From the NCBI RefSeq assembly GCF_004765785.1, contig NZ_SBIT01000010.1:186001-250000 (forward strand): DNA of 64,000 bases. The letters run 5' to 3'. Below the pieces are notes generated by a model. The model was given only the letters and a program-made list of their open reading frames with translations. It had not been told where the DNA came from and did no database searches. Position 1 is the stretch's first letter, and the number at the start of each line of letters is the position of its first letter. A program made the translations under genes and the position numbers. Origin of the DNA: Halorussus ruber. GTDB lineage: Archaea; Halobacteriota; Halobacteria; Halobacteriales; Haladaptataceae. Below are positions 20,224 to 25,028 of the stretch, in pieces.

Positions 20224-20895
20224 TCAGCGCAGGTCGTCCACGAGTCGCGCCAACGTGGCGAGGTCGTACTGGCCCGGCGCGGTCGCGTCCGCTGGATCGA
20301 CCGGCGCGTAGCCGATTCTCGACCCGTAGAGCGGCGCGACCGCCCGCGAGTGGCGACCCGGTTCGCCCATCGCCATCGTCGCCACCCGCGCGCCGGCCTC
20401 GGCGAACTCGTGGGTGACCGTCAGCAAGTCGAGGACATCGCCTCGATTCTCGGCGGTCACGGCGAGTTTGCCCACGTCAGCGCGGTCGGTCGCGGCTTCG
20501 AGGAGACCCCGGAGGTCTGGTTCCGGCGGCGTGCGCTCGAAGTTGTGGACCGAGGCCACGACTTTGGTTCCGGTCCGGCGAGCGCGCTCGGCGACGCGCT
20601 CGCCGTCGCCCTCGGTCAGCGACTGGAGTTCGACATCCACCGCTTCCACGCAGACCAGTTCGGCGGCCTCGGCGAGTTGAGCGAGTCGGGCGTCGTCCTC
20701 CTCGGCCTCGCCGCCCTCCCACTCTGCCCGGTTAGTGGCGAGGACGGGCAGTTGTCCGTCGTAGTCGCGGAGTTGGGCGAGCGGGTCGTCGGCGAGGTCC
20801 ATCCGGAACTCGACCGCGTCGGCGTGTTCTCGGGCCTCGGGTTCGGCGTCGAGGTCGGTGAGGCTCGCCGTGAGGACGAACTCCTCGAAATTCAT
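20224..20895 (-). CDS. aroD: 3-dehydroquinate dehydratase, type I
   Basis: 223 residues. It dehydrates 3-dehydroquinate to 3-dehydroshikimate. Type I features are VEFRMDLADDPL, the histidine segment VVASVHNFERTPP, the Schiff-base lysine in ADVGKLAVTAEN and the C-terminal MGEPGRHSRAVAPLYGS. Slightly short compared with bacterial enzymes but all active-site blocks are present. Partner of aroB' immediately upstream. Confidence 0.95.
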   Translation of the reverse strand: MNFEEFVLTASLTDLDAEPEAREHADAVEFRMDLADDPLAQLRDYDGQLPVLATNRAEWEGGEAEEDDARLAQLAEAAELVCVEAVDVELQSLTEGDGERVAERARRTGTKVVASVHNFERTPPEPDLRGLLEAATDRADVGKLAVTAENRGDVLDLLTVTHEFAEAGARVATMAMGEPGRHSRAVAPLYGSRIGYAPVDPADATAPGQYDLATLARLVDDLR

Positions 20896-21322: not shown

Positions 21323-21330
21323 TTTAAATA
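21323..21330 (+). promoter_or_regulatory. TATA box of candidate RNA gene
   Basis: TTTAAATA, a near-ideal haloarchaeal TATA box, about 30 bases before the predicted 5' end of the structured region that begins near 21355-21361 and 280 bases before the metG start. That is too far to serve a leaderless metG transcript. Confidence 0.5.
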
Positions 21331-21354
21331 TCGAGACGCCCAATCCGAAATCGT

Positions 21355-21475
21355 GCTACTCACGGTCCGAACCCCCGCGCAGTCGAGGACACGCCCTCGC
21401 GCTATGCGTATGCGCATGCCGAGCAACGCGTAGCGTCGGGAGGAGTCGCCCGGACCGTGGCGCGCGGTGTTTTTG
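21355..21475 (+). ncRNA. Candidate structured RNA (or long metG leader)
   Basis: CACGGTCCG (21361-21369) is perfectly complementary to CGGACCGTG (21451-21459). Inside are three hairpins: CGAGG/CCTCG (near 21384-21399), ATGCG/CGCAT (near 21404-21417) and ACGC/GCGT (near 21426-21436). A T5 run follows at 21470-21474, consistent with archaeal termination. No tRNA T-arm or anticodon signature is visible, and no protein-like frame. It may be an independent small RNA or a regulatory leader of metG. Confidence 0.45.
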
Positions 21476-21604
21476 GGTGGTGAAACCCGGCCGCTCGGTC
21501 GAATCGCAAGCCGACCGCTCGAAACCGACGACGAACGACAGACGACAGCATGCCCGAACACGGAAATCGGCGGGTTTTACACCCGCCACGGAGGATTGGA
21601 TAGT

Positions 21605-23788
21605 ATGAGCCACGACGACTTCCCGACGGAGAATCCGGCGGTGGTGACCTGTGGGTTGCCCTACGCCAACGGCGACCTCCACATCGGCCACCTCCGGACG
21701 TACATCAGCGGCGACGCCTACGCTCGCGCACTGGAGAAGTTAGGTCAGGAGACCGCGTTCGTCTCCGGGTCCGACATGCACGGGACCCCGGTCGCGGTCA
21801 ACGCCGAGAAGCGGGGCGTCTCCCCCGAGGAGTTCGCGCTGGAACACCACGAGAAGTACGCCGAGACCTTCCCGCGGTTCAACGTCGAGTTCGACAACTA
21901 CGGCCACACCCACGACGAGACCAACACCGAACTCACCCAATCGTTCGTCCGGTCGTGGGTCGAGAACGACCACGTCTTCGAGAAGGAGATTCAGGTGGCG
22001 TGGGACCCCGAGGCCGACACGCCCCTGCCCGACCGCTACGTCGAGGGGACCTGCCCCTACTGCGGTGCCAAAGCCCGCGGCGACGAGTGCGACGAGGGCT
22101 GTCAGCGCCACCTCGAACCCGGCGAAATCGAGGACCCGGTCAGCACCATCACGGGCAACCCCGCCGAGTACCGCACGCGAGAACACAAGTTCCTGCGACT
22201 CTCGGACTTTCAGGAGTACCTGAAGGGGTTCATCGACCGCCTCGAAGGCACCAGCAACGCCCGCAACCAGCCAAAAGAGTGGATCGAGGGCGAACTGCAG
22301 GACCTCTGTATCACCCGCGACATGGACTGGGGTATCGACTATCCGGGTGAAGGCAAAGAGGACCTCGTTCTCTACGTCTGGGTGGACGCCCCTATCGAGT
22401 ACGTCTCCTCGACCAAGCAGTACACCGAGCGCGTCGGTGCAGACGAGTACGACTGGGAGGAGGTCTGGAAGGCGGGCGCACCCGAGGCCGACGCCCCCGA
22501 GGCGGCCGACGACGAGACGTGGGACGACGCCGACACGGGCGACATCGTCCACGTCATCGGTCGGGACATCATCCAGCACCACACCGTCTTCTGGCCCTCG
22601 ATGCTCCGGGGCGCGGGCTACAACGAACCCCGCGCGGTCATGGCCAGCGGCTTCGTCAACCTCGACGGGCAGGCGTTCTCGACCAGTCGCAACCGCGCGG
22701 TCTGGGCCGACGACTACCTCGACGAGGGCTTGGACCCCGACCTCGTGCGCTACTACCTGACCACGACCGGCGGCTTCCAGCAGGACGTGGACTTCTCGTG
22801 GGAGAAGTTCCAAGAGCGCGTCAACGGCGAGTTGGTCGGCACGCTCGGCAACTTCGCCTACCGGAGCCTGCTGTTCGCGGCCCGGAACTACGACGGCGCG
22901 CCCGACGCCGACACCTCCGAGGAGGTCGCCTCGCGCATCGAAGACGCGGTCGCGGACTTCGAGGAAGCGGTCAACGACTACTCGCTCAAGCAGGCTGGCG
23001 ACGCCGCAGTCGCGCTCGCTGGCTTCGGCAACGAGTACATCCAGCGCAACGAACCGTGGAACCTGACCGGCGACGACGGCGAGTCGCGTAGCGACTCGGA
23101 ATCACCGAGCGGCGATGAGCCGCGAGGTCCCACGCGCGCAGAACAGGTCATCTACGACTGCGTCCAGATTGCGAAGGCCGTCGCCGTCCTCTCCGCGCCC
23201 ATCCTGCCCGGCAAGGCCCAGACCCTCTGGGAGCAGTTGGGCGAGGAGGGGTCGGTCCACGACGCGAATCTCGACGCCTGCCTCCAGTCGCCGCCGGGCG
23301 AGTTCGGCGAACCCGACGAACTCTTCGACAAAATCGAGGACGAGCGCGTCGAACAACTCAACGAGAAGCTACAGGAGCGAATCGAAGCGGCTACGGACGA
23401 CAGCGGCGAAGACGCGACCGAGGAGAGCGAAGACGACACCATGAGTGAAGACATCCAACCCGTCAAGGAGGACCGCATCAGCTTCGAAGACTTCCAAGAC
23501 CTCGACATCCGCGTCGGCGAAATCGAGGTCGCCGAACCCATCGAGGGCGCAGACGACCTCGCGCGCCTCGAAGTGGACATCGGCACCGAGACCCGCCAAA
23601 TCGTCGCGGGCATCAAGCAACTCCACGACCTCGACGCGCTTCCGGGGACGAAGGTCGTCGTCGTGGCGAACCTCGAACAGGCCGAACTGTTCGGCGTCGA
23701 GTCCAACGGCATGGTGCTGGCGGCCGGCGAAGAGGCCGACCTGCTGACGACTCACGAGGACAGCGTGCCGGGGACAAAGGTGCGATAG
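21605..23788 (+). CDS. metG: Methionyl-tRNA synthetase with C-terminal tRNA-binding domain
   Basis: 727 residues from ATG 21605 (MSHDDFPTENPAVVTCGLPY). Class I signature PYANGDLHIGHLR; zinc-binding insert CPYCGAKARGDECDEGC; the KMSKS loop appears as FSTSRNRAVWADD; anticodon-binding helices follow. After an acidic linker (about 595-620) comes an EMAP-II/Arc1p-like tRNA-binding domain (ISFEDFQDLDIRVGEIEVAE to GMVLAAG). In the helical domain, between NEPWNLTGDD and AEQVIYDCVQIAK, there is an unusual Ser/Arg/Gly-rich insert encoded by palindromic DNA (see 23081-23131). Confidence 0.97.
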   Translation: MSHDDFPTENPAVVTCGLPYANGDLHIGHLRTYISGDAYARALEKLGQETAFVSGSDMHGTPVAVNAEKRGVSPEEFALEHHEKYAETFPRFNVEFDNYGHTHDETNTELTQSFVRSWVENDHVFEKEIQVAWDPEADTPLPDRYVEGTCPYCGAKARGDECDEGCQRHLEPGEIEDPVSTITGNPAEYRTREHKFLRLSDFQEYLKGFIDRLEGTSNARNQPKEWIEGELQDLCITRDMDWGIDYPGEGKEDLVLYVWVDAPIEYVSSTKQYTERVGADEYDWEEVWKAGAPEADAPEAADDETWDDADTGDIVHVIGRDIIQHHTVFWPSMLRGAGYNEPRAVMASGFVNLDGQAFSTSRNRAVWADDYLDEGLDPDLVRYYLTTTGGFQQDVDFSWEKFQERVNGELVGTLGNFAYRSLLFAARNYDGAPDADTSEEVASRIEDAVADFEEAVNDYSLKQAGDAAVALAGFGNEYIQRNEPWNLTGDDGESRSDSESPSGDEPRGPTRAEQVIYDCVQIAKAVAVLSAPILPGKAQTLWEQLGEEGSVHDANLDACLQSPPGEFGEPDELFDKIEDERVEQLNEKLQERIEAATDDSGEDATEESEDDTMSEDIQPVKEDRISFEDFQDLDIRVGEIEVAEPIEGADDLARLEVDIGTETRQIVAGIKQLHDLDALPGTKVVVVANLEQAELFGVESNGMVLAAGEEADLLTTHEDSVPGTKVR
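23081..23131 (+). repeat. In-frame palindromic insert in metG
   Basis: GAGTCGC (23081-23087) and GCGACTC (23091-23097) form a hairpin with loop GTA; GCGGC (23109-23113) and GCCGC (23119-23123) form a second with loop GATGA. The peptide ESRSDSESPSGDEPRGP is not expected at this MetRS position, where a short loop normally sits. It looks like an extragenic-type palindromic repeat captured in frame. Confidence 0.5.
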
Positions 23789-23891: not shown

Positions 23892-25028
23892 ATGTCTGCC
23901 TTCTTTTCTTCCATTATGGTAGAAAACCAACAAGAAAAAGGTGCAGAAGAAGGTGCGAAAAGCACGCGACGTGAGGTTCTTCGGGCGGTCGGAGCCTCTG
24001 GAACGGGGGTTCTTGCCATCCAACACGGACTTCAGGGAGTACGCGCTGGGGGCGACGACGTCAAAATCGTCACACACAAAAGTCGCAACACGGTCGCAAG
24101 GACACAGCGAGTCAGCAAACAGTGGTACGACCACAAGACTCAGGCGAAACAGGCCTTGAATCGGCTTCGGCAGAACCTCGGTGCATCACCCAATGTGCTC
24201 GGGATAAGCACTGAGACGTTAGACGAACGAATCGACGGGCTACGGAAGTTCGGAATTCGAGTTTCGTTCGACGAGGCCGAAGGCTCGCTCCCAGTTGCGA
24301 GCGAAGTCAACGGGATTCCGGTGCTGACTGAAGAGATTCCTGGATTCGACCGTGCTTGCTACACCGGCTATCAGGAGCCGATAAAGGGCGGCAACGGTCA
24401 TACGAGTCCATCTGGTGCGGCGACACTCACCTGTCGCGTATACAAGGGCGGACAGAAGTTCATGATGGGCTGTCGCCACGTGTTCGTGGACAACGACAAA
24501 GGGAACTGTGACGGATCGGACATAACCGGAACCAAATGGTCCCAGGGAGGTGACGAGGTCGGGAAGGTCGTCTACGGATATCAGAACCACGACTGTACCC
24601 TACTCGACAAGAGTACGGACGGCAACCGCGTCTTCGATAACAGCATCGTTGACGAAACGGGGTACGTCGCCGGTCGCGTCACAGCAGAGGGAGTTGATTA
24701 CCTGGCTTCGAGTAACGATACAGTTCGTAAGCGAGGACGTTCGTCGTGTAAGGAGCAGGGAGAAGTCGTCGGTACAGGTACCATCTACTGTAATAACGGC
24801 AACTACGTCGGAAACGCCGTTCGCCATACTGCACACATCGAGTCCGGTGACTCTGGCGGGCCCTCGTACCACAAAATCTCCAAATCCAACAGTTCGGACG
24901 AACTCTACATGCTGAACATCAACACGCACAGCAAGTCGATTACTGGTGACGACACGTGGGGTTCGGCGGCGTTCGCCATGCACAACAAGCGAGATATCTC
25001 GTTTGGCGGTGCGACGTTCAGCGGATAA
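23892..25028 (+). CDS. Tat-exported trypsin-like serine protease (S1 type)
   Basis: 378 residues. A twin-arginine motif TRREVLR is followed by a hydrophobic stretch (AVGASGTGVLAIQ), so Tat export is likely. A charged propeptide-like region (about 55-140) precedes a chymotrypsin-fold domain with catalytic His196 (MMGCRHVFV), Asp234 (NHDCTLL) and Ser321 (ESGDSGGPS). The protein has several cysteines, consistent with an extracellular disulfide-bonded enzyme. The start could be ATG 23892 or 23916; an A/T-rich TATA tract (23850-23868) fits 23892. GC content is lower than in flanking core genes. It probably degrades extracellular protein; the next gene is another exported protein. Confidence 0.82.
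   Translation: MSAFFSSIMVENQQEKGAEEGAKSTRREVLRAVGASGTGVLAIQHGLQGVRAGGDDVKIVTHKSRNTVARTQRVSKQWYDHKTQAKQALNRLRQNLGASPNVLGISTETLDERIDGLRKFGIRVSFDEAEGSLPVASEVNGIPVLTEEIPGFDRACYTGYQEPIKGGNGHTSPSGAATLTCRVYKGGQKFMMGCRHVFVDNDKGNCDGSDITGTKWSQGGDEVGKVVYGYQNHDCTLLDKSTDGNRVFDNSIVDETGYVAGRVTAEGVDYLASSNDTVRKRGRSSCKEQGEVVGTGTIYCNNGNYVGNAVRHTAHIESGDSGGPSYHKISKSNSSDELYMLNINTHSKSITGDDTWGSAAFAMHNKRDISFGGATFSG

Follow-up and report, generated by a model that had tools for sequence, protein, structure and literature searches.

The intergenic region upstream of metG in this part of the Halorussus ruber genome raises the question of whether a structured segment at positions 21323-21475 is an RNA gene in its own right, or belongs to the control of the methionyl-tRNA synthetase gene that follows it. 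The window analysed here is a stretch of 64,000 nucleotides (positions 186,001 to 250,000 of contig NZ_SBIT01000010.1), and the features described between 21323 and 23788 lie on its plus strand. The region is located between a minus-strand ORF of 223 aa (20224-20895), which is aroD-like by eye, and metG (21605-23788), the putative regulated gene, which has relatives in 291 of the 292 genomes of the class and whose closest named relatives belong to Halorussus species. Downstream of metG, an ORF at 23892-25028 with a twin-arginine-like start (RREVLRAVG) and an SGDSGGP motif resembles by eye a secreted chymotrypsin-like serine protease. The metG upstream regions of about 120 haloarchaeal genomes were gathered.

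The first-pass annotation had described the segment as a candidate new RNA gene with a strong TATA box and a cloverleaf-like closing stem plus three arms. The TATA box TTTAAATA of the putative promoter, here named P1, is present at 21323-21330. The 9-bp closing stem is exact, with CACGGTCCG (21361-21369) complementary to CGGACCGTG (21451-21459), and the T5 run after the structure is found at 21470-21474. The MFE fold contained the closing stem, together with two clear inner hairpins in place of the three that had been proposed. The segment had been said to lack tRNA hallmarks, in agreement with ARAGORN, which gave no tRNA or tmRNA match in the window. No Rfam family matched at the gathering score, the T-box covariance model included, and a permissive scan returned two chance-level matches to a viral family and nothing relevant. 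The folding energy of the segment was weakly above chance (12 of 200 shuffled sequences folded equally well, z -1.87), and a larger stretch showed no excess over shuffled sequences (z -0.34). No universal or conserved intrinsic terminator was found, since the T5 run is present in this genome and the position is T-rich in Halorussus, but the run is not conserved in other genera. The segment was matched upstream of metG in 17 of the 18 Halorussus genomes searched (its own included), and conservation extends to about 21490 and resumes at 21560-21587.

The segment had not been noticed as an ORF. Reading a conserved ATGCG...TAG stretch in frame back to the promoter revealed a leaderless leader-peptide ORF of 26 codons (MLLTVRTPAQSRTRPRAMRMRMPSNA, 21353-21433), with a GTG start at 21353 and a TAG stop at 21431-21433, so that a short ORF lies between the putative promoter and the gene. 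Its start codon is conserved and lies 30 nt after the TATA box. This is where a leaderless haloarchaeal message is expected to start, which fits the prediction of P1 as a promoter. The ORF is intact in 17 of 17 Halorussus genomes and is recognisable at the same place upstream of metG in about 27 haloarchaeal genera, where beyond Halorussus the recognisable stretch consists of ATGCG...TAG followed by CGCCGGGTGGACC. Related metG leader peptides include MTATGLPDNMRMRAFF, MTHAASPGMRPMYSF, MPATASPGMRGMMTSF, MTVHADSPTCAMRSMHLL, MTSVHPTSMRMRMGLF and MTTARTPAPARSMRMQR, each ending at a stop codon, and the spacing from TATA box to start is 29-31 nt in nearly all related leaders. In more than half of the metG upstream regions examined from haloarchaea, no leader is present. 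Where it occurs, the segment is not in the first place a structured non-coding RNA but a leaderless mini-ORF whose stop is preceded by Met codons.

The reading frame was evaluated by looking for an open frame that begins with ATG or GTG 29-31 nt after a TATA-like box. The Met-Arg frame satisfied this in 31 of 36 genomes, a figure helped by selection, since the genomes were picked by eye for the ATGCG...stop motif and the downstream element, many of them from a scan for in-frame MR mini-ORFs. Either of the other two frames satisfied it in none of the 36. This zero count, the start-codon spacing and the composition-blind test described below are less exposed to that selection; several of the tests count related genomes as separate. 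The frame was disrupted in two genomes (L023 and L029).

The leader peptides diverge except for the Met codons just before the stop. In H. ruber these are codons 18, 20 and 22 (ATG CGT ATG CGC ATG, 21404-21418), the presumed sensing codons. Among 24 peptides, approximately one per genus, all 41 non-start Met residues fall within the final nine positions of the peptide, where they take up 41 of 216 places, indicating that the cognate codons are concentrated in this part of the leader ORF. The Arg codon that follows the anchor Met differs in its third base (C in 16, T in 11, A in 4 and G in 3). Some Natrialbaceae leaders, with the endings MRS, MRP or MRV, have a single Met besides the start. Across genera the N-terminal half shows little conservation, and peptide length ranges from 12 to 38 residues.

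Comparison of the metG upstream region among relatives, which had been suggested as a check for conserved pairing, showed that the closing stem is kept in Halorussus and that pairing covaries between genera. Within Halorussus, 89% of the cells of the stem are paired, compared with 16-44% for slid controls, with compensatory changes at three of ten pairs. The closing stem, whose 5' arm is inside the leader ORF and whose 3' arm lies beyond the stop codon, is real, and translation would have to cross the 5' arm. Judged from the sequences, it is the version, in Halorussus, of a more widespread pairing that joins the 5' part of the leader to the RNA after the stop and leaves the Met codons in the loop. 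For this pairing the summed best perfect helix was 531 with the true partners and 442 ± 18 with swapped partners, and none of 20,000 permutations reached the true value; in different genera, for instance, GGTCCACCACGCG pairs with CGCGTGGTGGACC, and GGTCCACCCG with CGGGTGGACC. When duplexes were first scored by energy, own and swapped partners differed only slightly (142 of 5000 permutations), and the pairing claim therefore rests on the perfect-helix score.

Shortly after the stop codon is a conserved element containing CGGGAGGA (21436-21446; CGGGTGGACC in most genera), which can form a small hairpin or pair with the 5' part of the leader. A leader ribosome could alter RNA pairings that are supported by covariation, the alternative states being predicted. 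The inner hairpin CGCTATGCGT/ACGCGTAGCG (21400-21435), which holds the Met codons and the stop codon, is found in Halorussus only; compensatory changes were looked for in it and none was seen, and it was dropped as evidence. Farther downstream, the element GGGTGGTGAAACCCGG (21475-21490; GGCGAAACCC in most genera) is conserved. A pairing of GAAACCCG (21482-21489) with CGGGTTTT, at the P2 box described next, was considered and rejected: it is possible in Halorussus and by eye shows no covariation in the GCGGGCTTTAG genera.

A second putative promoter, P2, is marked by a TTTTA box at 21575-21579, 30 nt before the metG ATG and inside the inverted repeat GGCGGGT (21569-21575)/ACCCGCC (21581-21587). 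Of 42 leader-bearing genomes, 39 have the box, and in 33 of these it stands 28-33 nt before the ATG; it is also kept in genomes without the leader. A basal leaderless promoter for metG is therefore probable, and the gene could probably be made from it without the leader. The inverted repeat is kept across many haloarchaea, and its right arm is missing in some genomes lacking the leader (L026, L034 and L045). A second upstream ORF over P2, MPEHGNRRVLHPPRRIG, with its stop directly before the metG ATG, is in frame by eye in many Halorussus and in Haladaptatus. Since its frame is lost in Halostella and what is conserved is the nucleotide sequence, the P2 promoter is the better reading.

Leaders of the same kind were found at other synthetase genes. 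In the H. ruber genome, the Phe-rich leader MPSEPQTGGSVRKPRDQRAGFGFFFAP (L144, C3) is located 261 nt before the pheS ATG and is followed by a strong hairpin, CCCGGTCGG/CCGACCGGG; the same pattern recurs in approximately 25 of 30 haloarchaeal pheS upstream regions. The leader MQSALRTWRWQTPGERTVS lies upstream of the 407-aa TrpRS gene (L174, C2), and MRLTVSVVRRTV (L209, C3) lies 98 nt before the valS ATG; other haloarchaea with a more distant ValRS type have a peptide ending in GPRxxVFVGAx in place of the VVR leader. Two related Haloferax trpS genes are preceded by 23-aa Trp leaders, MVSTSRATCWRWRSTWEVDSIAV and MVSTSHANCWRWHAFREVDSIAV. Each of the three was confirmed by searches across the class, which showed GFGFFF ahead of the stop for pheS, WRW for trpS and VVR for valS.

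When mini-ORFs were chosen by TATA position and length only, blind to composition, the cognate residue was enriched 10.0-fold for Met at metG, 11.3-fold for Phe at pheS, 15.2-fold for Trp at trpS (counted over the first part of the peptide) and 4.2-fold for Val at valS, against approximate proteome frequencies and with related genomes counted separately. The other three tested residues reached 0- to 1.6-fold in the same part of the peptide. The trpS leader stem also covaries, with the Trp codons in its loop (636 for true and 498 ± 20 for swapped partners). In the metG and trpS leaders alike, therefore, the putative sensing codons lie between arms that a ribosome would open.

No cognate leader was seen upstream of the Leu, Ser, His, Tyr, Thr and Cys synthetase genes, no Trp leader at the trpC and chorismate-binding genes tested, and no Phe leader in the pheS upstream regions of three g9 genomes (possibly Haloferax). 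In the H. ruber genome, candidate leaders with some cognate codons precede the ProRS gene (L204, MRPAKTP before the stop) and the IleRS gene (L197, MGNYNTNLQAIVTRTTPITDPTAQPNPI before the stop).

Several explanations could account for the conserved blocks upstream of metG. A structured, untranslated small RNA gene independent of metG would explain the TATA box, the closing stem with its covariation in Halorussus and the T5 run. Such a gene should contain no conserved open reading frame, whereas here an in-frame ORF with a leaderless start is recognisable in about 27 genera, and the other frames failed in every genome of the frame test. The constant position upstream of metG, the cognate-codon pattern at four synthetases and a folding energy near chance also speak against it, making this explanation highly unlikely. 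The first-pass annotation had named two possibilities, of which the results support the leader that controls the synthetase and count against the independent small RNA gene. The conservation of the ORF and its own promoter would also suit a small protein with a function of its own, or a regulatory peptide, encoded beside metG, a very improbable reading given the poorly conserved N-terminal half and the variable length of the peptides. If the conserved blocks served a transcription factor as operator or promoter DNA, the ORF being incidental, the retention of the P2 box within its inverted repeat across many haloarchaea would be expected. Such an account could cover 21560-21587; in the leader segment, however, conservation follows codons and RNA pairing, and for the locus as a whole the account is extremely improbable.

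A translated leader could also act more simply, without sensing Met-tRNA, by uORF repression, by ribosome delivery or reinitiation at metG, or by protection from termination. The ORF itself is well supported, and polarity and translational coupling are known in archaea (PMC12548453). However, coupling reportedly weakens over gaps larger than 30-40 nt (PMC12548453), while the gap between the leader ORF and metG is 171 nt, and simpler action leaves unexplained both the presence of its own amino acid in each synthetase leader and the covarying pairing around the cognate codons. It is thus an unlikely alternative. The ORF and its start spacing, the Met codons, the covarying pairing, the P2 box and the leaders at pheS, trpS and valS are all read from sequence, and it is quite likely that the metG leader is an archaeal leader-peptide attenuator sensing the charging of Met-tRNA.

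In such an attenuator, the P1 transcript would start at the GTG at 21353, or within a base or two of it, and would encode the leaderless 26-residue peptide with Met codons in its 3' third. The RNA would pair across the Met codons, the 5' part of the leader with the sequence just past the stop codon, and the progress of the ribosome through the leader would set these pairings and thereby the amount of P1 transcript that becomes productive metG mRNA. With plentiful charged Met-tRNA the ribosome would reach the stop codon, and when it is scarce the ribosome would stall on the Met codons. The stalled state, if bacterial attenuators are a guide, should raise MetRS output. P2, 30 nt before metG, would supply a leaderless basal transcript. 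We infer translation, stalling and the direction of control, as well as its level, which could be transcription termination (intrinsic or by FttA/aCPSF1), translation or mRNA stability. Polarity in archaea is believed to require FttA (PMC12548453), and a review on coupling in archaea discusses whether aCPSF1 termination and ribosome coupling may exclude each other (PMC8116511), so that termination by a factor is one candidate.

Leader-peptide attenuation is a textbook case of how ribosome and RNA polymerase are coupled in bacteria. It is known from trpL, pheL, hisL and the pheM leader of E. coli pheST, and synthetase genes are among its targets. The metG leader shares with these systems a short upstream ORF, cognate codons at a critical position and surrounding RNA with the potential for alternative pairings. 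It differs in its archaeal host, its leaderless start at the promoter, the second promoter by the gene and the lack of a conserved hairpin and U-run terminator. T-boxes also control synthetase genes by tRNA charging, but they bind tRNA directly, with no translation and no ORF. Control of a synthetase by charging, predicted here, would be shared with them, whereas the metG leader has an ORF and no Rfam match.

In experimental transcription start site maps of H. volcanii, Babski et al. (2016; Table 2) gave uORFs in long 5'-UTRs, of 23 aa for trpS (HVO_A0127) and 26 aa for pheS (HVO_2948), as possible small proteins; metG is not in that table, and the passage on uORFs does not connect them with cognate codons, RNA pairing or attenuation (PMC4983044). 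The H. volcanii trpS uORF matches in length the Haloferax trpS leaders described here, which come from two other Haloferax genes. In the open-licence PubMed Central literature no report of leader-peptide attenuation in archaea was found, nor a paper that ties the trpS uORF to its cognate codons, and papers elsewhere could exist.

Taken across the class, it is rather probable that haloarchaea control at least four synthetase genes (metG, pheS, trpS and valS) through leaderless leaders rich in cognate codons, by a translation-dependent attenuation that senses charging, operates without a bacterial-type terminator and stands beside a leaderless basal promoter. With the set of Met, Phe, Trp and Val leaders, the cell can probably detect through stalled ribosomes that charged tRNA is running short. 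The locus also carries a warning, that short leaderless ORFs can pass for structured RNA genes. If the proposal is true, control by tRNA charging through stalled ribosomes would exist in a genetically tractable archaeal class, and the four-amino-acid leader set would support a functional coupling of transcription with translation and would provide ready-made reporters.
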